64,000 nt of DNA from Oscillospiraceae bacterium (GCA_021771715.1 JAETOO010000012.1:54384-118383), one strand, 5' to 3'; shown: positions 5,308-59,887, counted from the stretch's first letter. Translations and numbers: made by a program. Notes: generated from the letters alone by a model not told the origin.

Positions 5308-5507
5308 CCGCCGCTTAGCCGCGCTGCATTTTGCTGATATCATGCTGCTTAGCCGTGCTGCATTTTCTGATATCATGCTGCTCTGGCGCGCTGTATTGTT
5401 TTGATACTATGCTGTTTTGGCGCGCACTGCGTTTTGCCGATATCATACTGCTTTGGCGTGCTGCGTTTTGCTGGCATCATATTGTTTTGGCGCGCTGCAT
5501 TTTTATG
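5308..5507 (+). repeat. 34-bp tandem repeat array upstream of traX (6 units)
   Basis: The GCTGCATTTT-like anchor recurs at 5323, 5357, 5390, 5426, 5460 and 5494, giving spacings of 34, 33, 36, 34 and 34. Each unit carries a core like TGATATCATGCTGCTTTGGCG; three copies keep the palindrome GATATC. Units are contiguous with no unique spacers, so this is not CRISPR. The array ends a few bases before the traX ribosome binding site. Confidence 0.9.
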
Positions 5508-12110: not shown

Positions 12111-13604
12111 TTATCTCCTGGCCAGTTCCTTCGTGATGTCCTCCCAGGTGACCTGGCGCTCCGCCATCAGCACCATCACGTGGTAGAGGAAATCGGAGAT
12201 CTCGTACTTGATTTCCTCCGGGTCTGGATTCTTGGCCGCGATGATGATCTCCGTGGCCTCCTCGCCGACCTTCTTGAGGATTTTGTCGATTCCCTTGTCG
12301 AACAGATAGTTGGTGTAGGAGCCCTCCTTCGGATGAATCTTGCGGTCCTCAATCACACGGTAGACATCCTCGAAGACTTTCAGCGGATTCGTCTCGTCGT
12401 ACTCTTTTTTCAGGATCGTGCGGTAGAAGCAGCTGCGGTTGCCGGTATGGCAGGCAGCGCCAACCTGGTGCACCTTCGCGAGCAGCGTGTCCTTGTCGCA
12501 GTCGACCAGGAGCTCCTTGAGGTACTGAAAATGCCCGGAAGTCAGCCCCTTGACCCAGAGTTCCTGGCGGCTGCGGCTCCAGTAGGTCATGCGGCCGGTG
12601 CGCACGGTCATCTCGTACGCTTCCTGATTCATGTACGCGACCATCAGGACCTCCTGCGTCTTGTAGTCCTGGACGACGACCGGAACCAGACCGTCCGAAT
12701 TTTCCAGAAGATCCGGCCAGGCGACGGAGGTCTCGTACGTGTTGACCGGAATATCCGCCTCCTTCAGCGCGTGCTTCAGAGCCATGTAATCGTATTCCGG
12801 CGACATGAACGCGCGCGCGCACAGTCCGAAGACGGCCTCCTGTCTGAGCAGCGCGGCCACAGACGAAAAGAAAGACGATTTCTCCGATGCTTTCGGGGAC
12901 ACCGAAGACAACACGTCTTCCATCATCCCGGACACTCCCCGAGTCGAACCTTCCGGTGACTTCTCGGATGCTCCTTGAGTCGAGACTTCCGGTGATTTCT
13001 CAGATGCTCCCTGAGTCGAATCTTCCGGCGGCAGCTGCGTTGCCGCACTCTCGGCGATTGTTCCGTCCCAGCCCTGCACAACGAGCAGCTGCGGAATATC
13101 GCCGTCCTGCCTGGCTGCCATCTGCAGGGCGTCCGGCAGCAGTTCCTCCGTAAGCAGCACGATGCCGCAAAGCAGCGGGCCGTGGCTTGCGGCCTCCCCG
13201 AGCGCCTGTGCATCCTTCACACAGGCGAGCAGCTTCTCTTTCCCGAATCTGGAGGAGGCCTCGTGGGTCAGCTCGATGTTCGTTTCCTTTGCATAGTTCA
13301 GGAACACCTTCTGGCAGCCGGCGTAGAGGAGCTTCTTGACATCCTCCAGCCTGCGCACATTTCCGCCGCCGTAGATCGGGATATCGACCGTGCGCGCCAT
13401 CTCCTTGATCACGCCGATGGCCGCATCGTGCTCCGCATCCCCGTCGGAAAAATCAAACAGCAAAATCGCGTCCGCGCCGCAGTTGCCGTAGCGCTCCGCA
13501 AGCGCTGACGCAGTTCCGCCTTCATACGCAGTAAAATCATGCGGTCCGCTGACCGCTCTCCCGTTCTTCAGATAGACCGGGACGATTATTTCTTTTTTGG
13601 TCAT
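12111..13604 (-). CDS. hisIE: HisIE with N-terminal HisA/HisF-like half-barrel
   Basis: A 497-residue protein. Residues 1-160 resemble half of a HisA/HisF TIM barrel ([33 protein letters not shown]). A repeat-bearing insert follows (about residues 190-224), then a diverged segment to about 300. The PRA-cyclohydrolase (HisI) domain runs about 305-405 with zinc ligands in VDCDKD and [11 protein letters not shown], and the PRA-ATP pyrophosphatase (HisE) domain runs from about 412 ([13 protein letters not shown]). HisI and HisE catalyse steps 2 and 3 of histidine synthesis. The N-terminal domain lacks an obvious second phosphate-binding half, so it is probably not a full isomerase. It is the last gene of the his cluster; AAAGGA lies 6 bases before the ATG. 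Confidence 0.92.
12931..13035 (-). repeat. 36-bp in-frame tandem repeat inside hisIE (3 units)
   Basis: The GAGTCGA anchor recurs at 12941, 12977 and 13013, exactly 36 bp apart. Units encode the 12-mer [12 protein letters not shown]. The array lies between the HisA/F-like domain and the HisI domain. Confidence 0.9.
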
Positions 13605-28888: not shown

Positions 28889-30943
28889 TCACTTCTTCTT
28901 GTGCACGTTTCGGATCGTCTTTTTCTTTCCGGCCTTCCGACTCTGTGCAATCGCCCCCGTCCTCTTTGTCCGGTCGGTCGTCTCTGCTTTCTGGCTCTGC
29001 GCAATCGCCCCCGCCCTCTTTGTCCGATCGGTCGTCTCTGTCTTCTGGCTCTGCGCAATCGCCCCCGCCCTCTTTGTCCGGTCGGTCGTCTCTGTCCTCT
29101 GTCCCCGTGTGGTTCTCTCCGCTTTCTGGCTGCACGCCTCTGCCTTCATCTGGCGCGGGCGGATCAGACACTCCGGGCCGAAGCCGATCAGGTCCGTCCG
29201 CCCGGCGAGCTGCAGGGCCTCGCGCACCAGTTCGTAATTCTCCGGCCTGCGGTACTGCATCAACGCGCGCTGCAGCTTCTTGCGGTGCGGGTTCTTCTCG
29301 ACGTAGACCGGCTCCATCGTGCGCGGATCCAGGCCCGTATAGTACATGCAGGTCGACACCGTCGCGGGAGTCGGGTAGAAATCCTGTACCTGCTCCGGCA
29401 TATAGTGCAGGTCGCGCAGGAAGCACGCCAGCTCCACCGCATCCTGCATCGTGCAGCCGGGGTGCGAGGACATCAGATACGGCACGAGAAACTGCTTCTG
29501 ACCGCACGATTCGTTCATCTTCTGATACTGCTTGGTAAAGCGCTCATACACTGCGTGCCGCGGCTTCCCCATCATCGCGAGCACATTGTCTGAAACGTGC
29601 TCCGGCGCTACTTTCAGCTGCCCGCTCACATGGTACTGCACCAGCTCCCGGAAAAAGGCGTCCGAGCGGTCCGCGAGCAGGTAGTCGAAGCGGATTCCGG
29701 AGCGGATGAAGACCTTCTTCACGCCCGGCACACGGCGCAGCGCGCGCAGAAGCTCCACGTAATCCCTGTGGTCCGCGTCCAGATTCGGGCACGGCTCCGG
29801 GAACAGACACTGCCGGTTCTGGCAGACGCCCTTTGTGAGCTGCTTCTTGCAGGAGGGGTGGCGGAAATTGGCCGTCGGCCCGCCCACGTCATGGATATAC
29901 CCCTTGAACTCCGGATCGCGCGTCATCTCCTGCGCCTCCGCGAGCAGCGACGCATGGCTCCTCGTCTGCACGATCCGGCCCTGGTGCATCGTCAGCGCGC
30001 AGAAATTGCAGCCGCCAAAGCAGCCGCGGTTGCTCACAAGGCTGAACCGCACCTCCGCAATCGCCGGGATGCCGCCTGCCTCATCGTACATCGGGTGCCA
30101 TGTCCTGCAGTACGGGAGCGCGTACACGTCATCCATCTCCTGCTGTGTCAGCGGCTTCGCAGGTGGATTCTGCACGACGTACACCGTGCCGTACGGCTCG
30201 ATCAGCCGTCTGGCCGAGAACGGATCCGTGTTTTTGTACTGCATCGCAAAGCTCTCGGCATACGCGCGCCGGTCGCGGCAGATCTCCTCGTAGGACGGCA
30301 GGACGATGCCGTCGTAGACCTCCTCGGGGTGCTTCGTCTTGTAGCAGGTGCCGCTGATAAAGGTCAGATCCCGCACCGACAGCCCGGCGTTTAAGGCGTC
30401 CGCGATCTCGACGATCGAGTGCTCTCCCATCCCGTAGGAGATCAGATCCGCGCCGCAGTCCATCAGCACCGACCGCTTCACCTTGTCAGACCAGTAATCA
30501 TAGTGCGCCAGCCGCCGCAGGCTCGCCTCGATGCCGCCCACAATGATCGGCACATCCTTGTACGCCTGCCGGATCAGGTTGCTGTAGACGATCACCGCGT
30601 AGTCCGGCCGGCACCCCATCCGGCCCCCGGGCGTGTAGGCGTCCGTCTGGCGGTGCTTTTTGGACACCGAATAGTGGTTGACCATCGAGTCCATGTTGCC
30701 CGCCGTCACGAGAAAGCCAAGCCGCGGCCTGCCAAGCGCCATCACGCTCTCTTTGTTTCGCCAGTCCGGCTGCGGGATGATCCCGACCGTGTAGCCGCGT
30801 GACTCCAGCAGCCGGCCGATGATCGCATGGCCGAAGGAGGGATGATCGACGTACGCATCCCCCGTCACATATACAAAATCAAGCTGTTCGATTCCCCGCT
30901 CCCGCAGATCCTCTGCGCAGACCGGAAGGAAACTTTTCTCCAT
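28889..30943 (-). CDS. YgiQ family radical SAM protein with repeat tail
   Basis: A 684-residue radical SAM protein. The N-terminal part contains DFVYVTGDAYVDHPSFGHAI and NMDSMVNHYSVSKKHR, typical of YgiQ. The Fe-S motif is GCFGGCNFCAL (Cx3Cx2C), near residue 320. The reaction is unknown. The start is set to MEKSFLPVC because AGAGG lies 7 bases upstream; the ORF-track start adds 22 residues. Beyond the conserved end (PRQMKAEA) a tail of about 70 residues carries an 18-residue tandem repeat and ends in KKK. Confidence 0.93.
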   Translation of the reverse strand: MEKSFLPVCAEDLRERGIEQLDFVYVTGDAYVDHPSFGHAIIGRLLESRGYTVGIIPQPDWRNKESVMALGRPRLGFLVTAGNMDSMVNHYSVSKKHRQTDAYTPGGRMGCRPDYAVIVYSNLIRQAYKDVPIIVGGIEASLRRLAHYDYWSDKVKRSVLMDCGADLISYGMGEHSIVEIADALNAGLSVRDLTFISGTCYKTKHPEEVYDGIVLPSYEEICRDRRAYAESFAMQYKNTDPFSARRLIEPYGTVYVVQNPPAKPLTQQEMDDVYALPYCRTWHPMYDEAGGIPAIAEVRFSLVSNRGCFGGCNFCALTMHQGRIVQTRSHASLLAEAQEMTRDPEFKGYIHDVGGPTANFRHPSCKKQLTKGVCQNRQCLFPEPCPNLDADHRDYVELLRALRRVPGVKKVFIRSGIRFDYLLADRSDAFFRELVQYHVSGQLKVAPEHVSDNVLAMMGKPRHAVYERFTKQYQKMNESCGQKQFLVPYLMSSHPGCTMQDAVELACFLRDLHYMPEQVQDFYPTPATVSTCMYYTGLDPRTMEPVYVEKNPHRKKLQRALMQYRRPENYELVREALQLAGRTDLIGFGPECLIRPRQMKAEACSQKAERTTRGQRTETTDRTKRAGAIAQSQKTETTDRTKRAGAIAQSQKAETTDRTKRTGAIAQSRKAGKKKTIRNVHKKK
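28941..29102 (-). repeat. 54-bp in-frame tandem repeat at the YgiQ C-terminus (3 units)
   Basis: The CTCTGYGCAATCGCC anchor recurs at 28941, 28995 and 29049, exactly 54 bp apart. Units encode TETTDRTKRAGAIAQSQK and differ at a few bases. Confidence 0.92.
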
Positions 30944-38379: not shown

Positions 38380-39462
38380 ATGAAAAAGAGAATCCTGTGC
38401 GTGTTTCTGCTTCTGTTTTCCTACCTTCTGTTCTTTCCGGAGGCCGCCCTCGCCTCCGCGCGCGAGGGGCTGCTGCTCTGGTACCGCTCGATCATCCCGA
38501 CCCTGTTTCCGTTTATGCTGCTGTGCACGCTCGCCGTCCGCCTGAATTTGGCCGGCTCCCTCCTGGGCCTCTTCGCGCGCCCCGTCTGCCGGATCTTCGG
38601 GTGCTCCCGGCACGGCGCCTTCGCTGTACTGACCGGCTTCCTCTGCGGGTTCCCGATGGGGGCGAAGGTCACAGCCGACCTCGCGCGCCAGCAGCTGATC
38701 TCCGGGCGCGAAGCGCGCTTCCTCTACGGCTTCGTGAACAACGTAAGCCCCGCCTTCCTGCTCTCCTACCTCGCCTCTGACCAGATGCGGCGGCCGGATC
38801 TCAAGGTGGTATTTCTCGGGACGATCCTTGGCTCCTCCCTGTTGTACGGCATCCTCAGCTCCCTGCGCTACCGGAAACCCGCACCCACGCGGAGCTTCCC
38901 TCCGCGCACGAACCGATCTCCGCACGAACAGAGTTCCTCCACACACCCGAACGGATCTTCGAATACACAGGTGTTTTCCACACGCCCGAACAAATCCTCA
39001 GACAAACAGGATTTCTCCTCGCGTCCGAACGACTCCTCGGACGAACAGGATCTCTCCGCGTTCTCGGCCGCCCCACACCGCCCGCTCTCCTTCGCGCTCC
39101 TGGACGAGTGCATCACCGACACCTGCCAGAACACCGTGCGGCTGGGCGCCTACATCATGCTGTTCTCCATCCTGACCGGCGCGGCGCAGCGTTTCTTCCC
39201 CACCGACCACCCGGCCGCGCTCTTCCTCGTCTCCTCGATCGAGATCACGAACGGCGTCCGGCTGCTCGCGTCCAGCACGCTCCCGTTTCCCGTCAAGTAC
39301 GTCCTCCTGAACGCCGTCTGCACGTTCGGCGGGCTCTCTGCCTTCGTGCAGTCCGTCGGCATCGCCGGGATGGATGGCGCGCAGGCCCGATCCTACATAA
39401 AAAGCAGGGTATGTGCTACCCTGCTCTGTGTCATGCTCTCTGTCGGCGCCCTGCTTCTCTGA
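38380..39462 (+). CDS. YlbJ-like sporulation integral membrane protein
   Basis: A 360-residue polytopic protein of the nucleoside-recognition/gate family, similar to YlbJ/SpoVV, which in Bacillus is needed for dipicolinic acid transport into the forespore. Landmarks are SIIPTLFPFMLLCTLAVRLN, GFLCGFPMGAKVTADLARQ and FVNNVSPAFLLSYL. GGGAG lies 7 bases before the ATG. A Ser/Arg/Asn-rich loop of about 55 residues (around 170-228) holds a 39-bp tandem array and is unlikely to be membrane-embedded. It converges with the coiled-coil gene. Confidence 0.85.
   Translation: MKKRILCVFLLLFSYLLFFPEAALASAREGLLLWYRSIIPTLFPFMLLCTLAVRLNLAGSLLGLFARPVCRIFGCSRHGAFAVLTGFLCGFPMGAKVTADLARQQLISGREARFLYGFVNNVSPAFLLSYLASDQMRRPDLKVVFLGTILGSSLLYGILSSLRYRKPAPTRSFPPRTNRSPHEQSSSTHPNGSSNTQVFSTRPNKSSDKQDFSSRPNDSSDEQDLSAFSAAPHRPLSFALLDECITDTCQNTVRLGAYIMLFSILTGAAQRFFPTDHPAALFLVSSIEITNGVRLLASSTLPFPVKYVLLNAVCTFGGLSAFVQSVGIAGMDGAQARSYIKSRVCATLLCVMLSVGALLL
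38896..39051 (+). repeat. 39-bp in-frame tandem repeat in the YlbJ-like gene (4 units)
   Basis: The CGAAC anchor recurs at 38909, 38948, 38987 and 39026, exactly 39 bp apart. Units encode 13-mers like FSTRPNKSSDKQD. Confidence 0.9.
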
Positions 39463-52551: not shown

Positions 52552-52680
52552 CCCACCGGCAACTGTCGACTCGCCCGACTTTGCAAATTACTCCCGGTCG
52601 TTCGACGTCCTGTCCGACTCCGTGAAATGCTCCCGGACATTCGTCGACTCATCTGACTTCGCGAAATACTCCCGGACATT
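52552..52680 (-). repeat. 39-bp tandem repeat spanning the 3-prime end of the unknown gene
   Basis: The CTCCCGG anchor recurs at 52591, 52630 and 52669, exactly 39 bp apart. The distal unit lies beyond the TAA at 52588 but keeps the same frame. Confidence 0.9.
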
Positions 52681-53577: not shown

Positions 53578-55143
53578 TTACTGCCGGATGCTGTAGTACG
53601 CCTGAAAAATCTCCGACGCAATCGGCACCGCCGTCTGGCTCCCGGTGCCCCCGTCCTCTGCAATGACCGCCACCACCAGGTCCGGGTCATCCACGTTGGA
53701 AAACCCGACGAACCAGGAATGCGTTCCCTCATTTCCGTTTGCCCCGTACTCGGCGGAGCCTGTCTTTCCCGCCGCCGTGTAATTGTACCAGCTAAGCGCT
53801 GTGGCCGTTCCCGTGGCCACCGTCTCCTTCATATCCTCGGTGAGCAGTCTGGCCTCCTCCGTCGTCATCAGCCGCTTGTACTTCGAGGGGCTGTTTTTGG
53901 ACACCATCGTGCCGTCGAACGCCTCGATGTGATCGATCAGATACGGCTTCATCAGGATGCCCCCGTTCGCCACCGTCGAAGTGATCAGCGCCATGTGCAG
54001 CGGAGTCACAAGCGTGTTGCCCTGCCCGATCGCAGTCGTCATCTGCTCTCCAAGGGACGAATCCTTGTCGAGCACGAACTGCGACGTGCTGTGCTGCATC
54101 GAGGCCGGGAGCGCCTTGTTGAACAGAAAGTCCTCGCAGAGCGCGTGAAACTCCTCATTGTCCAGATCCAGGCCGATCTGCGCGAACGCGGTGTTGCAGG
54201 AATGCGCAAACGCACCCTTCAGGTCCTCCTCCCCGTGCGCCGTCTGGTTGTAGCAGTTGATCGTCACATCCTCGACGGTCAGCCTGGCGTTGCAGTTGAA
54301 CTGGAACTGCGTGTACGCGTTCGGCTGCTGTCGCATGAACGCGAGCGTCGTCAGAATCTTGAACGTCGAGCCCGGAGGGTACAGCCCCTGCGTCGCGCGG
54401 TTGAGCAACACGCTGCTCGAGCTGTCTGTCACGACACTCTCCCAGATCTCCTCGATGGCGTTCGGGTCATAGTCCGGCTTGGAAACCATCGCAAGGATCT
54501 TGCCCGTCTTCGGCTCCAGCGCGACGACAGCGCCGTTGTAGCCGCCAAGTGCTTGGTACGCCGCATTCTGCAGCGTCGCGTTCAAGGTCACGACGACGGA
54601 ATCGCCCATCTGTTTTTCCTCGTCCGACTCCTTGAGCTGTGTTAGCACCGACGCGTGCGACGCGAGCAGGTCATAGTTGCTCGTCGCCTCGAGCCCGGAT
54701 TTGCCGTTCGTCGCATAGCCAATCACATGCGCAAACACATTCGCGTACGGGTACACGCGGGTCTCTGTGCCATCCTCCCCCACCCGCGTCTCCGCCAGCA
54801 CGCTGCCGTCCGCGGACAGAATCGGCCCACGGATGTACTTGTCGGTGTTGGCGTCCTGCTTGGTGTTGTAGACATTTGAATTCAGGTCGTCGGCCTTCAC
54901 CGCATTCAGATAGACGACGTACCCGATCATCAGCAGGAACAAGAACACGAAGGTGTAGGTCACGATGCCCAGCTCCGTGTTGCGCTCTTTTCCGCCCAGC
55001 GGCTCCGGCTCCTGCTCAAAGCGAACCTCGCGGACTTTTACCGGAATCTTACCGTTTCTTTTTCCACCTGCGCTTTTTCTTTCCTGTGGACCCGTACCCG
55101 TCCTCGTATCCGCCGTCGTACCGGTAATCTTCTTCCTGCCCAT
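53578..55143 (-). CDS. Class B penicillin-binding protein
   Basis: A 521-residue transpeptidase. A basic N-terminal stretch of about 60 residues precedes one membrane helix (VTYTFVFLFLLMIGYVVYL). The active-site motifs are LYPPGSTFKILTT (SxxK), FAHSCNTAFAQ (SxN) and AAGKTGSAEYG (KTG). It cross-links peptidoglycan, most likely paired with the FtsW/RodA-type polymerase encoded just upstream. The start is uncertain: the ATG at 55143 (MGRKKITG) has GGAGG 5 bases upstream but lies 95 bases inside the end of the ftsW-like gene; a GTG just before the membrane helix is an alternative. Confidence 0.92.
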   Translation of the reverse strand: MGRKKITGTTADTRTGTGPQERKSAGGKRNGKIPVKVREVRFEQEPEPLGGKERNTELGIVTYTFVFLFLLMIGYVVYLNAVKADDLNSNVYNTKQDANTDKYIRGPILSADGSVLAETRVGEDGTETRVYPYANVFAHVIGYATNGKSGLEATSNYDLLASHASVLTQLKESDEEKQMGDSVVVTLNATLQNAAYQALGGYNGAVVALEPKTGKILAMVSKPDYDPNAIEEIWESVVTDSSSSVLLNRATQGLYPPGSTFKILTTLAFMRQQPNAYTQFQFNCNARLTVEDVTINCYNQTAHGEEDLKGAFAHSCNTAFAQIGLDLDNEEFHALCEDFLFNKALPASMQHSTSQFVLDKDSSLGEQMTTAIGQGNTLVTPLHMALITSTVANGGILMKPYLIDHIEAFDGTMVSKNSPSKYKRLMTTEEARLLTEDMKETVATGTATALSWYNYTAAGKTGSAEYGANGNEGTHSWFVGFSNVDDPDLVVAVIAEDGGTGSQTAVPIASEIFQAYYSIRQ

Positions 55144-57229
55144 AGCTGCCTCCGTCCTCATACGAATCGTCTGCTCCATATCCGCTTCCGCGGTATCCGT
55201 CACTCATCCCGCCGTCCGGCCCGTAGCCGCGATACCCATCGCCGTACTCCTCTCTCCCGCCGTAGCCGTCTTCGCCATAGTCATCTCCGCTGTAGCCGTC
55301 CCTGTAAGCGCCGTCCTCGCCGTAGCGTCCTCCATAGGAATCTTCTCCGTAGCCATTCCCATAGCCGCCGCTCATCCCGCCATCCGGCCCGTAGCCATCG
55401 CCGTAATGGTTTTCATAAGCACGATCTCTTCCGTAACCGCTTCCGTAAGAACCATCCCCGGCATAGTCATCCCCATAAGAGCTGTCCTCGCCGTAATCGT
55501 CTGCTCCATATCCGCTTCCGCGGTATCCGCCACTCATCCCGCTATCCGCCCCATAGCCATCGCCGTAATCGTCTTCATAAGCACGACCTCTGCCGTAACC
55601 GCTTCCGTAAGAGCCATTCTCGTCATAGCCGTCCCCATAGGAATCGCTGCCTCTGCCGTAACCATTTCCGTAGGAGCCGTTTTCGCCGTAGCCGTTCCCA
55701 TAAGACCCATCACCGCCGTAATTATGACCGCCGCCATTGGAGCCGCCACTATAAGAGCCGCCATCATAACCGCCATCCCGATAGCCGCCCGCATATCCGC
55801 CGTCATAACCGTACGCACCGCTTCCGCCGCGATAGGGCCCGCCGGCTCCCCCGTAGGAATCGCCGTAGCCTCCGCCCGCCGGTCCGACCGGCGCGCTCTG
55901 ACGCAGCAGCTTCTCCTGATTCTTCTTCTCCTCATCGCGCTGCAGCATATACAGGCCCTGGACAATCGCGAACATAATCAGCGTGCTCAGCATCGAGCTG
56001 CCCCCGTAGCTCACGAACGGCAGCGTCACTCCGGTCAGCGGAATCAGCTTGATACCGCCGCCGATTGTCAGAAAAATCTGCGTCGCGTACGTGCTTCCAA
56101 GCCCGACCGCCACCAGCCGGTAAAAGCGGTTTGAGAGCTGCATTGCGATATTGACGAACATGATAAAGCAGCTCATGCAGACCAGGATCAGACAGATCCC
56201 GAAAATCCCGCCAAGCTCCTCGGTAACCGCGGAAAACATCATATCCTGCTCCACGAACGGAATCGCGTTCGGCGATCCCTGGCAGAGCCCGGTGCCGAGC
56301 CAGCCGCCCGCGCTGATGGAGAACAAGGACTGGCAGATCTGGTAGCTTCCGCCCTGGTAATCCTTGAACGGATCCTTCCACGCCTCGACTCTGACGCGCA
56401 CATGCGCAAACAGAAAATAGGCCCCGACTGCCGCCAGGGAGCCGGACAGAATCCCCGTCAGCACAAGAAACGGATTCTTCGTCGCGACAAATAGCATGAC
56501 AAGGTAGGTGATAAAGAAGATCACCGCACTTCCCAGATCCTTCGACACCACCAGAATCAGCACATGGATCGCGGCGAGCACCGTCGCCACCACGATTTTC
56601 TTGAAATTGCGCGCGTTCGACAGCAGGCCTGCGATCGCGAACACATAGATAATCTTTACAAACTCTGACGGCTGCACCGAAATCCCTCCCACGGTAAAGG
56701 AGAGCTTCGCGCCGTATGTCACCCGCGCGGCGATCGCGACAAGCGCCAGCAGACCGATTCCCGCGAGCGTGTAGAACCAGTACATTTTCGTGATAAACCG
56801 GAGCTTCCGGATGATCACAGGGATCAGCAGCGCGACCACGGTGGAGAGCACCGCGATCTGGAACTGTTTGATACACTTATCATAGTTCAGGCGCGTCAGC
56901 ATGATGAAGCCGATGCAGATCAGCATGCACATATTGTTGATCAGCAGCTTGGAGGCCAGCGGGTACAGATTTCTGAACAGCACAAGCACGGCCACCAGAT
57001 AGATCATCTGTGCCCCGTAGAACATCAGCACCGTCAGCTCTGTCTTTTCCAGATACAGCACGGTAAATGCCACAAAGTGCATTGCAAACATCAGCATATT
57101 CTGGCGCAGAAACAGATACTCCCGCGCTTCGTCGTCCTTCTTGTGGAACACGGTAAAGCACTGGAAGGTGTACAGCGCCATCAGAATAATGATCAGGTAT
57201 TTCGAAACCTGTATGATGAGATTCGTCAT
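55049..57229 (-). CDS. FtsW/RodA/SpoVE family protein with long Gly/Tyr-rich tail
   Basis: A 726-residue SEDS-family glycan polymerase. Residues 1-440 contain about eleven membrane helices and the conserved QPSEFVKIIYVFAIAGLL, KDLGSAVIFFITYLVMLFVA, GIPFV-like and LPLTGVTLPFVSYGGSSMLS (here IPLTGVTLPFVSYGGSS) blocks. Residues about 448-726 are a low-complexity tail rich in Gly, Tyr, Asp and Ser (YGDGYGADSGMSGGY-like units) ending KKKRRWKKKR. SEDS proteins normally stop soon after the last helix. It starts 3 bases after the U32 gene stop and overlaps the PBP gene. Confidence 0.94.
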   Translation of the reverse strand: MTNLIIQVSKYLIIILMALYTFQCFTVFHKKDDEAREYLFLRQNMLMFAMHFVAFTVLYLEKTELTVLMFYGAQMIYLVAVLVLFRNLYPLASKLLINNMCMLICIGFIMLTRLNYDKCIKQFQIAVLSTVVALLIPVIIRKLRFITKMYWFYTLAGIGLLALVAIAARVTYGAKLSFTVGGISVQPSEFVKIIYVFAIAGLLSNARNFKKIVVATVLAAIHVLILVVSKDLGSAVIFFITYLVMLFVATKNPFLVLTGILSGSLAAVGAYFLFAHVRVRVEAWKDPFKDYQGGSYQICQSLFSISAGGWLGTGLCQGSPNAIPFVEQDMMFSAVTEELGGIFGICLILVCMSCFIMFVNIAMQLSNRFYRLVAVGLGSTYATQIFLTIGGGIKLIPLTGVTLPFVSYGGSSMLSTLIMFAIVQGLYMLQRDEEKKNQEKLLRQSAPVGPAGGGYGDSYGGAGGPYRGGSGAYGYDGGYAGGYRDGGYDGGSYSGGSNGGGHNYGGDGSYGNGYGENGSYGNGYGRGSDSYGDGYDENGSYGSGYGRGRAYEDDYGDGYGADSGMSGGYRGSGYGADDYGEDSSYGDDYAGDGSYGSGYGRDRAYENHYGDGYGPDGGMSGGYGNGYGEDSYGGRYGEDGAYRDGYSGDDYGEDGYGGREEYGDGYRGYGPDGGMSDGYRGSGYGADDSYEDGGSYGQEEDYRYDGGYEDGYGSTGKKKRRWKKKR
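55060..55890 (-). repeat. Repetitive DNA encoding the FtsW/RodA tail
   Basis: Many imperfect units with GGY codons (seen as ATAGCC, GTAGCC on the plus strand) fill the region. Larger direct repeats exist; for example the block starting TCTGCTCCATATCCGCTTCC occurs at about 55170 and about 55500, 330 bp (110 codons) apart, with about 35 identical bases. Confidence 0.85.
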
Positions 57230-57232
57230 AAC

Positions 57233-59887
57233 CTACTCTACCCCTCTTTTGAAATGTCCCCGCGTGCCGGTGTGCGTCGCTTCCTCTGCCACCTGCTTCC
57301 GGCTGTCCGAAAAGGCCCGCAGGTACCGCTCCAACACCTCCGCCGTCCCATCTCCCGTCTCTGTCGTGAACGAGAGACGCAGCGTCTGCGGATTCAGCCT
57401 GGCGATCTCCTCCCGGCAGTCCGCCAGCTCCAGCGGAACGGAATTGTAAATGGTATTGCAGCAGCTCGCGCAGCGGTTCCACACCGGAAACGCTGCATGT
57501 TTGCGGTCCCGCAGGGAAAGCACGCGCGGTCTCCCCGTGCAGCCCCCTGTATTGTTCGTCACACACTGTGCGGAGTGCATGAGTGCCTGATGCCCGTACA
57601 CGACCAGCTCATACTGACACTGCGGACATGCGATGCTGCGGCGCTCCGCCTCGAGCAGCTGCTTCAGCTCTTTGAAGTTCAGCTCCGCCGGAAGTGCCCT
57701 GCGGCCGATTCCCAGCTCCCGCAGGACCTCTGCCGCTCTGGAATTGTACGCGTAGCAGGTATCGTCCGCGGTCAGGAGGGCCCCACTTGGCCCATAAGCG
57801 CGCAGATAGGCGAGCTCATCGAGCGTATGCACCAGAAAACCGTCAAATAGATCCAGCAGCCCGGTCTGTCTCAGCTTCTCGAACAGCGCCCGGTCCTCTC
57901 CCCGGAACACCGGCGGGAGATTCAAAAAGCAGCGGAAACCGGCCTTCTTCACCCTGCCGGAGAGCTCGCGCAGCCTGTCCTCGTTCACGCGATATCGCCC
58001 TTCGCACGCCAGCATGAGATCCAGATAAACATCCGATAGCCGCTGATCGCCCAGGCGCAGAACCGCATCCAGCTGCTCCGCCGTCATAACAGAAGCAGAG
58101 AACTGCCATTCTCCTGCAGGCTGATTCTGATTCGTCCGATTATCTGCGGACTGTTCCATTCCGTCATTTGCAGATCGCTCTGCCTGGTCATCTGCTGACT
58201 GTTCCGTCCGGGCATCTACAGACCACTCCATTCGGTCATTTGCAGATCGCTCTGCCTGGGCATTTGCAGACTGTTCCGTCCGGGCGTCTGCAGACTGCTC
58301 CATTCCGTCATTTGCAGATCGCTCTGCCTGGGCATCTGCAGACTGCCGCGTCTGGCCGCATGCAGCGGGCTCGGACGTCCCGGCACCCCTGCGGCTTCCG
58401 CTCAGAATTTCAGTTTCCAGCTCCGCCAGGGCGCGCCTGCGCAGCTCATTCAGCTCGCGAACCGCCACAAACACGCCGTCCTCCATCCGGATGTCCAGCG
58501 TCTCAAATTCAAACGGCGTGTTGCCGGTCTTGCGCAGCTGCTTTTCGACCGCTTCCCTGGTCGTCGGCTGCGACTGCGCGGGCGAGATATCCTGCTCCGA
58601 ACACACCGTGACTGCATGCGAGTCGCAAATCACCTTGAGTATAGCAGGGCTCCCGGCCGAAATCTTTAACTCTCCCTTAATTTTTTCTTTGCAGTTCCTG
58701 TCGAGATACCGCTCCTTCAGCTCCGTAAGAAGGGCCTCGTTCCTCGTCCGATACCACGTGCCGCCGGCCTTTTGGCGCACTGCATTTTCCGGAAGCGGCA
58801 CGGTTGCGCCCTCCCGGACATCACTCCCCAGAGTAAAGGAAACGGGAGCGCTGTGCGATTCAATCACATCTCCCCGGTGCAGCGGCTCAAGCGCCGTTGC
58901 CCGCAGCCTGCCGTTTTTCCCTTTCTGGACGCGGATGGCTGCAGTCCCGAAATGGTTCGGGCGGTCCATCGACATCATGTCTGGCCCGTTATGACTGTAA
59001 TAGTAGCCCTCCGTGAACCCGCCGCGGTTGTACAGATCCAGCAGCGCCCGGTAATCCTCCGGGAGCACCTGACTGCTCTTTCGCCCGGACTCCAGACAAT
59101 CGTCGATATACCTCCGGTAGATGCTCACGACCCCCGCCGTGTACTCCGGCCGCTTCATCCTGCCCTCAATTTTCAGAGAGGCGATCCCGGCCTCCAATAG
59201 CTGCGGCAAAATCTCCAGCGTACAGAGATCCTTCATGCTGAGCATACATTTTGCCCCGCAAAGTGCCCTCCCGGACGCATCCTCCGTCTGGTATGGCAGG
59301 CGGCACGGCTGCGCACAGCGCCCGCGGTTCCCGCTTCGCCCGCCGATCATGCTGCTGAAGAGACACTGACCGGAGTAGGAGTAGCACAACGCGCCGTGGA
59401 TAAACGTCTCGACCTCGATGCCGGTCTGCTCGATGATCCGCCGGATCTCCGCCAAGGACAGCTCGCGCGCCGTCACGACCCGCGTCACACCCTGCTCTGC
59501 GAGCAGACGCGCCCCGTCGACTCCCGTCACAGTCATCTGCGTGCTCGCATGCACCGGAAGCTGCGGAAACATTTCCCGGATAAACTGCAGCACGCCCAGG
59601 TCCTGCACAATCACACCGTCCAGCCCTGCCTGATCGTACGGCAGCAGATACGCGTACAACGCTTCCTCCAGCTCCTGCTCCTTCAGCAGCGTGTTTACCG
59701 TCATATACAGCTTTTTCCCGTGGATATGGCAGTAGTCAATCCCCGCAAGCAACGCTTCCTGCTCCGGATTATCCGCATACGCACGGGCCCCGAATCTGCT
59801 GCCCCCGATATAGACCGCATCCGCCCCCGCATTCACCGCTGCCCGCAGACTGTCATACGACCCCGCCGGCGCCAATAATTCTACCAT
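57233..59887 (-). CDS. U32 family peptidase/collagenase-like protein
   Basis: An 884-residue U32 protein. The N-terminal barrel begins MVELLAPAGSYDSLRAAVNAG and carries GALCYSYSGQCLFSSMIGGRS, NRGRCAQPCRLPY and the U32 signature SLKIEGRMKRPEYTAGVVSIYRRYID. A C-terminal DUF3656-like region includes NRCASCCNTIYN. Some U32 proteins hydroxylate rRNA or tRNA rather than cleave proteins, and the clustered Cys are compatible with an Fe-S cofactor. Residues about 512-580 are a repeat insert. The start is fixed by GGAGG 5 bases upstream. First of a tight unit with ftsW-like and pbp genes. Confidence 0.93.
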   Translation of the reverse strand: MVELLAPAGSYDSLRAAVNAGADAVYIGGSRFGARAYADNPEQEALLAGIDYCHIHGKKLYMTVNTLLKEQELEEALYAYLLPYDQAGLDGVIVQDLGVLQFIREMFPQLPVHASTQMTVTGVDGARLLAEQGVTRVVTARELSLAEIRRIIEQTGIEVETFIHGALCYSYSGQCLFSSMIGGRSGNRGRCAQPCRLPYQTEDASGRALCGAKCMLSMKDLCTLEILPQLLEAGIASLKIEGRMKRPEYTAGVVSIYRRYIDDCLESGRKSSQVLPEDYRALLDLYNRGGFTEGYYYSHNGPDMMSMDRPNHFGTAAIRVQKGKNGRLRATALEPLHRGDVIESHSAPVSFTLGSDVREGATVPLPENAVRQKAGGTWYRTRNEALLTELKERYLDRNCKEKIKGELKISAGSPAILKVICDSHAVTVCSEQDISPAQSQPTTREAVEKQLRKTGNTPFEFETLDIRMEDGVFVAVRELNELRRRALAELETEILSGSRRGAGTSEPAACGQTRQSADAQAERSANDGMEQSADARTEQSANAQAERSANDRMEWSVDARTEQSADDQAERSANDGMEQSADNRTNQNQPAGEWQFSASVMTAEQLDAVLRLGDQRLSDVYLDLMLACEGRYRVNEDRLRELSGRVKKAGFRCFLNLPPVFRGEDRALFEKLRQTGLLDLFDGFLVHTLDELAYLRAYGPSGALLTADDTCYAYNSRAAEVLRELGIGRRALPAELNFKELKQLLEAERRSIACPQCQYELVVYGHQALMHSAQCVTNNTGGCTGRPRVLSLRDRKHAAFPVWNRCASCCNTIYNSVPLELADCREEIARLNPQTLRLSFTTETGDGTAEVLERYLRAFSDSRKQVAEEATHTGTRGHFKRGVE
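58149..58340 (-). repeat. 24-bp (72-bp higher-order) in-frame tandem repeat in the U32 gene
   Basis: Eight contiguous 24-bp units start at 58149 and every 24 bp to 58317, with a partial ninth at 58341. Three unit types recur in a fixed order, giving a 72-bp super-repeat. They encode SADARTEQ, SANAQAER and SANDGMEQ. Confidence 0.95.

Follow-up and report, generated by a model that had tools for sequence, protein, structure and literature searches.

A divergent SEDS glycan polymerase with a tyrosine- and glycine-rich C-terminal tail conserved throughout a Lachnospiraceae genus

The described systems closest to the locus reported here are the pairs of RodA and a class B PBP, represented by T. 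thermophilus RodA (6PL5) and E. coli RodA-PBP2 (8TJ3). In the actinobacterial version of this pair, RodA-PbpA, the operon also encodes FhaA, which contains an unstructured linker of about 300 residues (PMC11898655). Likewise, disordered regions have been tied to peptidoglycan polymerase function for B. subtilis PBP1 and RagB (PMC12457691). Outside cell-wall synthesis, prion-like low-complexity domains such as those of FUS and hnRNPA1 contain 15-20% aromatic residues at uniform spacing, and their composition and patterning are conserved as the sequence varies (PMC9748015).

We analysed a SEDS (FtsW/RodA/SpoVE-like) glycan polymerase gene located in a 64,000-nucleotide stretch of DNA, referred to as the window. 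The product resembles RodA in its fold, with TM scores of 0.82 against 6PL5 and 0.78 against 8TJ3 (AF2 model, Foldseek, normalised by target), in the conserved SEDS residues and in its genetic pairing with a class B PBP, but it differs from the RodA/PBP pairs in three extra N-terminal helices, a Tyr/Gly-rich tail of about 280 residues, and profile scores below the family cut-offs. The partner PBP shares its PBPA-type dimerisation domain with the actinobacterial pair, and a long disordered arm is found in both wall-synthesis operons, although the arm is part of the SEDS protein itself in the present case. In contrast to the regions of PBP1 and RagB, which are extracellular and K/S/D-rich (PMC12457691), the present tail is predicted to be cytoplasmic, is rich in Tyr and Gly, and is carried by the SEDS protein. 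The kind of enzyme is known and the tail is new: it is real, conserved in the genus, and the literature searched describes no prion-like tail on a SEDS polymerase. An FHA protein was also considered as a neighbour or partner and rejected, since the one FHA protein of the genome is on another contig. This protein, the sole FHA-domain match in the genome (L155, G000:C42:94333-94533), has a repetitive linker with ARYGTGR-like units.

The SEDS gene occupies 55049-57229 on the minus strand and encodes 726 residues. The first-pass annotation, which had called this open reading frame a SEDS protein with a Gly/Tyr-rich tail, was confirmed by the tail composition given below and by the Pfam profile PF01098 (FTSW_RODA_SPOVE), which matches residues 99-426 with an E-value of 3e-58 and 198 bits against a cut-off of 26.4; Foldseek matches to experimental structures of RodA and FtsW (6pl5, 8tj3 and 8bh1) place the model in the same superfamily. 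The core, residues 1-434 (55928-57229, minus strand), was modelled by AF2 from a 33-row alignment with pLDDT of about 90 across most of its length. The annotation had described the core as normal, and it is indeed RodA/FtsW-like, but its ten usual SEDS helices follow an N-terminal stretch of about 95 residues in which three additional helices are predicted. Asp329 and the flanking VEQDMMF motif are invariant in the alignment of 33 relatives, and we take Asp329 to be the probable equivalent of the SEDS catalytic Asp. The conserved acidic residue and the class B PBP gene directly downstream are both as expected for a SEDS member. All NCBIfam equivalog cut-offs were missed, with 188.8 of 337.5 bits for FtsW, 173.6 of 336.7 for RodA and 136.1 of 448.8 for SpoVE. 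The same genome contains three other SEDS genes, all without a tail, which we read as lying after murD, near gltX and after minD, respectively. With these three genes and the low scores, the tailed protein is the fourth, divergent SEDS of the genome. The best explanation for the gene product is therefore a fourth, non-canonical SEDS glycosyltransferase partnered by the PBPA-type class B PBP of 521 residues encoded next to it (53578-55143, minus strand), whose transpeptidase (PF00905) and dimerisation (PF21922) domains were matched on the longer open reading frame 53578-55203.

The tail, residues 447-726 (55052-55891, minus strand), consists of 35% Gly and 18% Tyr, and the final 279 residues contain 98 Gly, 50 Tyr, 36 Asp and 26 Ser. 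The pLDDT of about 35 at residues 466-717 in the AF2 model predicts disorder. Neighbouring tyrosines mostly lie at intervals of 4, 5 or 6 residues, and the net charge is -36 upstream of a basic C-terminal patch, GKKKRRWKKKR (55052-55084, minus strand), which lies within the stretch overlapping the PBP gene. The DNA of the tail is repetitive: the best 75-nt self-matches reach 0.91 and 0.87, compared with a mean of 0.60 and a maximum of 0.68 for a codon-shuffle null. Direct repeats of 330 bp had been proposed; direct repeats are present, but their units are 75 nt (55154-55228 and 55484-55558, 87% identical) and 119 nt (55362-55480 and 55524-55642, 87% identical), and 330 nt is the spacing of the former pair, the latter being spaced by 162 nt. 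The genome is repeat-prone also elsewhere. An in-frame tandem array at 58142-58355 inside a U32 peptidase gene comprises 8 units of 24 nt (or 2.8 units of 72 nt) and encodes repeats like SADARTEQSANAQAER, and further arrays, with periods mostly multiples of 3, are found in the window at 1635-1819, 5313-5503, 12935-13028, 28932-29101, 38927-39057 and 52575-52680.

We aligned the protein with its relatives, as the first-pass annotation had proposed. The genus is a Lachnospiraceae genus, from which one genome per species was sampled, and among the named relatives are bacterium 1XD42-54, whose tail of 169 residues has 25 Tyr, Candidatus Choladousia and Lachnospiraceae UBA7160. The SEDS gene was found in all same-genus species searched (n = 35) except for one 65%-complete genome, and in one species it is split across contigs. 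Within the genus, the tail is present wherever the gene is usable, and all the tails that were read are Tyr-rich. Among 42 distinct same-genus tails, the length ranges from 82 to 292 residues and the number of tyrosines from 8 to 50, the two being correlated (r = 0.75), and the window tail is the longest; the suspected variability in tail length was thus borne out between species. The mean contents are 14.5% Tyr, 1.0% Phe and 0.5% Trp. In most of the other Lachnospiraceae genera sampled, the tails are short, rich in K/R and poor in Tyr (4.1% Tyr against 14.5% in the genus). A quick core tree places the long Tyr-rich tail at the base of the genus. Other genera have separate Tyr-rich tails, namely L136 with an Asp/Glu spacer, L138 with an Asn spacer, and the L039/L041 group (with Pro in L041); in this tree L136 and L138 have long branches, whose placement is of little certainty.

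We then compared codons between seven independent close species pairs, aligned as DNA. The approximate Nei-Gojobori omega was 0.026 for the core, 0.034 for the Tyr codons of the tail and 0.30 for the other tail codons, so that the constraint on Tyr codons is about ninefold that on the remaining tail codons; the Tyr value counts stop-producing sites as nonsynonymous and would be slightly higher without them. The Asp and Asn codons of the same tails, which have the xAY form in common with Tyr, served for comparison. Aligned Tyr codons showed 27 synonymous and 11 nonsynonymous differences, against 17 and 51 for Asp/Asn (Fisher p = 5e-6), and the contrast persisted after removal of the codons lying 15 nt or less from an alignment gap (p = 1e-5). 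The size of this effect is less certain than its direction, since an aligner may prefer Tyr-Tyr pairing in tandem-repeat stretches. Aromatic residues are also spaced more evenly than in shuffled tails, falling below the shuffle mean in 40 of the 42 tails (z = -4.2 for the window), and even Tyr spacing was observed in 20 of 20 tails lacking DNA self-repeats. Taken together, the genus-wide tail of variable length and predicted disorder is under protein-level selection with a Tyr-specific constraint, which shows that it is translated. We therefore rejected a frameshift or sequencing error concealing a true end near residue 445, and the absence of the tail from relatives, which would have pointed the same way, did not occur.

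RodA-type proteins have their C-terminus in the cytoplasm. In another Lachnospiraceae genus, a SEDS protein runs in-frame into a PBP as a single 927-residue frame (L135, G153:C5), and a second SEDS-PBP fusion, broken at 742 residues, was found in another family of the order (L143, G038:C42). If the transpeptidase is outside, the C-terminus of the fused SEDS and the N-terminus of the PBP must be inside. The SEDS fold and the natural fusion in another genus thus make the cytoplasmic side the likely location of the tail, in agreement with the first-pass annotation.

The annotation had also likened the tail to eukaryotic low-complexity domains, and the comparison holds in several respects. With 50 Tyr and one Trp in the 279-292 residues counted as the window tail, its aromatic content is 17-18%, the aromatic residues are evenly spaced, and the composition is kept despite sequence divergence. 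Together with the disorder and the variable length, this pattern of retained tyrosines and drifting spacers is the one described as typical of prion-like domains of the sticker-and-spacer type (PMC9748015). We estimate the probability at about 0.5 that the tail is a cytoplasmic multivalent domain of Tyr stickers, which would cluster the SEDS-PBP pair or bind a partner. According to this model, the cytoplasmic C-terminus of the SEDS protein would have expanded in the genus into a disordered domain with regular Tyr stickers and a freely evolving spacer of Gly, Asp, Ser and Asn. Contacts between tyrosines would then most probably mediate multivalent, low-affinity association, homotypic between SEDS-PBP complexes and possibly also heterotypic with a cytoplasmic partner, by which the polymerase may be concentrated into membrane patches. 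Clustering by the tail is a well-motivated hypothesis, and we infer the stickiness of the tail and any effect on wall synthesis, like its cytoplasmic side, from the features above. More tentatively, membrane-tethered condensates formed by the Tyr stickers might set where or how densely the wall is made, with the sticker number tuned between species by the gain and loss of repeats and with Tyr-rich tails acquired separately in a few other genera; we regard this extended version as possible but doubtful.

Several features do not fit the sticker reading so well. A phosphorylated or partner-binding tail would also show constrained tyrosines. About 48% of the window tail is G/S/N/Q/T and 26% is charged, compared with a prion-like norm of about 60-70% polar and few charged residues; relative to the classic examples, the tail is richer in acidic and poorer in uncharged polar residues, and it offers few Arg residues as partner stickers. 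Unlike FUS and hnRNPA1, the tail is bacterial, membrane-tethered, provided with an acidic spacer and attached to a protein other than a nucleic-acid-binding one, and its condensation is putative. The tandem arrays in other genes of the region suggest that part of the growth in tail length may be mutational. A search of the genome with the tail matched only the SEDS gene and revealed no second Tyr/Gly-rich protein that could co-condense with it. Some 40 natural orthologues with 8 to 50 stickers make the clustering of wall enzymes by disordered tails directly testable. The case would also bring sticker-and-spacer evolution, so far investigated mainly for RNA-binding proteins of eukaryotes, to a membrane-bound enzyme in gut bacteria.

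The strongest rival to the sticker reading is that the tail is a flexible arm that recruits, through repeated Tyr motifs and without condensates, a heterotypic partner in the cytoplasm, for example a regulator or a protein of the cytoskeleton or of cell division. Short conserved motifs at the ends of SEDS tails in other Lachnospiraceae, TLEEKI.EQTEKSLNW-like in nine cases (L157, L159, L164, L168, L173, L194, L137, L139 and L142) and FEEVPKQRVR-like in six (L047, L049, L050, L053, L056 and L057), point to a candidate partner-binding site at the C-terminus in this SEDS clade, and a GPRYEYY.DD-like motif is common to part of the focal genus. However, no single motif is kept in the window tail, whereas the number and the even spacing of tyrosines are kept over a 3.5-fold variation in length, and our analysis found no partner. 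We consider recruitment without condensates somewhat unlikely.

The tyrosines could also be substrates of a BY-kinase, and the tail a phospho-switch. In the tail, many tyrosines stand in acidic surroundings, and the genome encodes a BY-kinase (L217, G000:C41:229614-230228) with its own C-terminal YGKYGKYGKYG cluster (YGKYGKYGKYGKYGKYG). The BY-kinase model was, however, unmatched at E 1e-30 in 11 of 40 same-genus genomes, including 7 of the 22 with a completeness of 90% or more and a contamination of 5% or less. Two genomes without a match, G025 and G012, are both 99% complete and have Tyr-rich tails. The retention of the tail in species without a detectable BY-kinase weakens the phospho-switch, for which dozens of evenly spaced sites would also be unusual, and we consider it quite improbable.

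An even less probable explanation is neutral or nearly neutral growth of the tail through the expansion of tandem repeats, to which the genome is prone. The many arrays elsewhere in the window, mostly with periods in multiples of 3, and the gaps that distinguish the aligned tails of close species are consistent with such growth, but the Tyr-specific constraint contradicts it, as do the even Tyr spacing in tails without DNA repeats and the retention of the tail in every same-genus species with a usable gene.

The end of the tail overlaps the partner gene, a feature that had escaped the first-pass annotation. The most likely start of the PBP in the window is the ATG at 55143, preceded by GGAGG at 55153-55149, both of which lie inside the SEDS tail and create a 95-nt overlap. 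The PBP start is apparently inside the SEDS tail also in close relatives, with the exception of L076, whereas in a more distant clade of the genus the PBP starts 12-89 nt past the SEDS stop without overlap. This difference suggests that the SEDS end was extended into the PBP start. A programmed frameshift that would join SEDS and PBP in the A-rich sequence closing the tail was considered and dropped, since the PBP frame is +1 and the usual A-rich slippery sites are -1. That the tail DNA is kept mainly for the ribosome-binding site and start of the PBP, with Gly-Gly-Ser-Tyr-Gly codons doubling as GGAGGCAGCTATG, would accord with the overlap in the window and most close relatives but is hardly credible, because the non-overlapping clade still has Tyr-rich tails and only the last 95 nt of the window tail overlap. 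Over the final 140 nt in the overlapping clade, moreover, the differences fall mainly at the third SEDS codon position (22, 25 and 62 at positions 1, 2 and 3, respectively), indicating that the SEDS frame is real and is the constrained one in the overlap.
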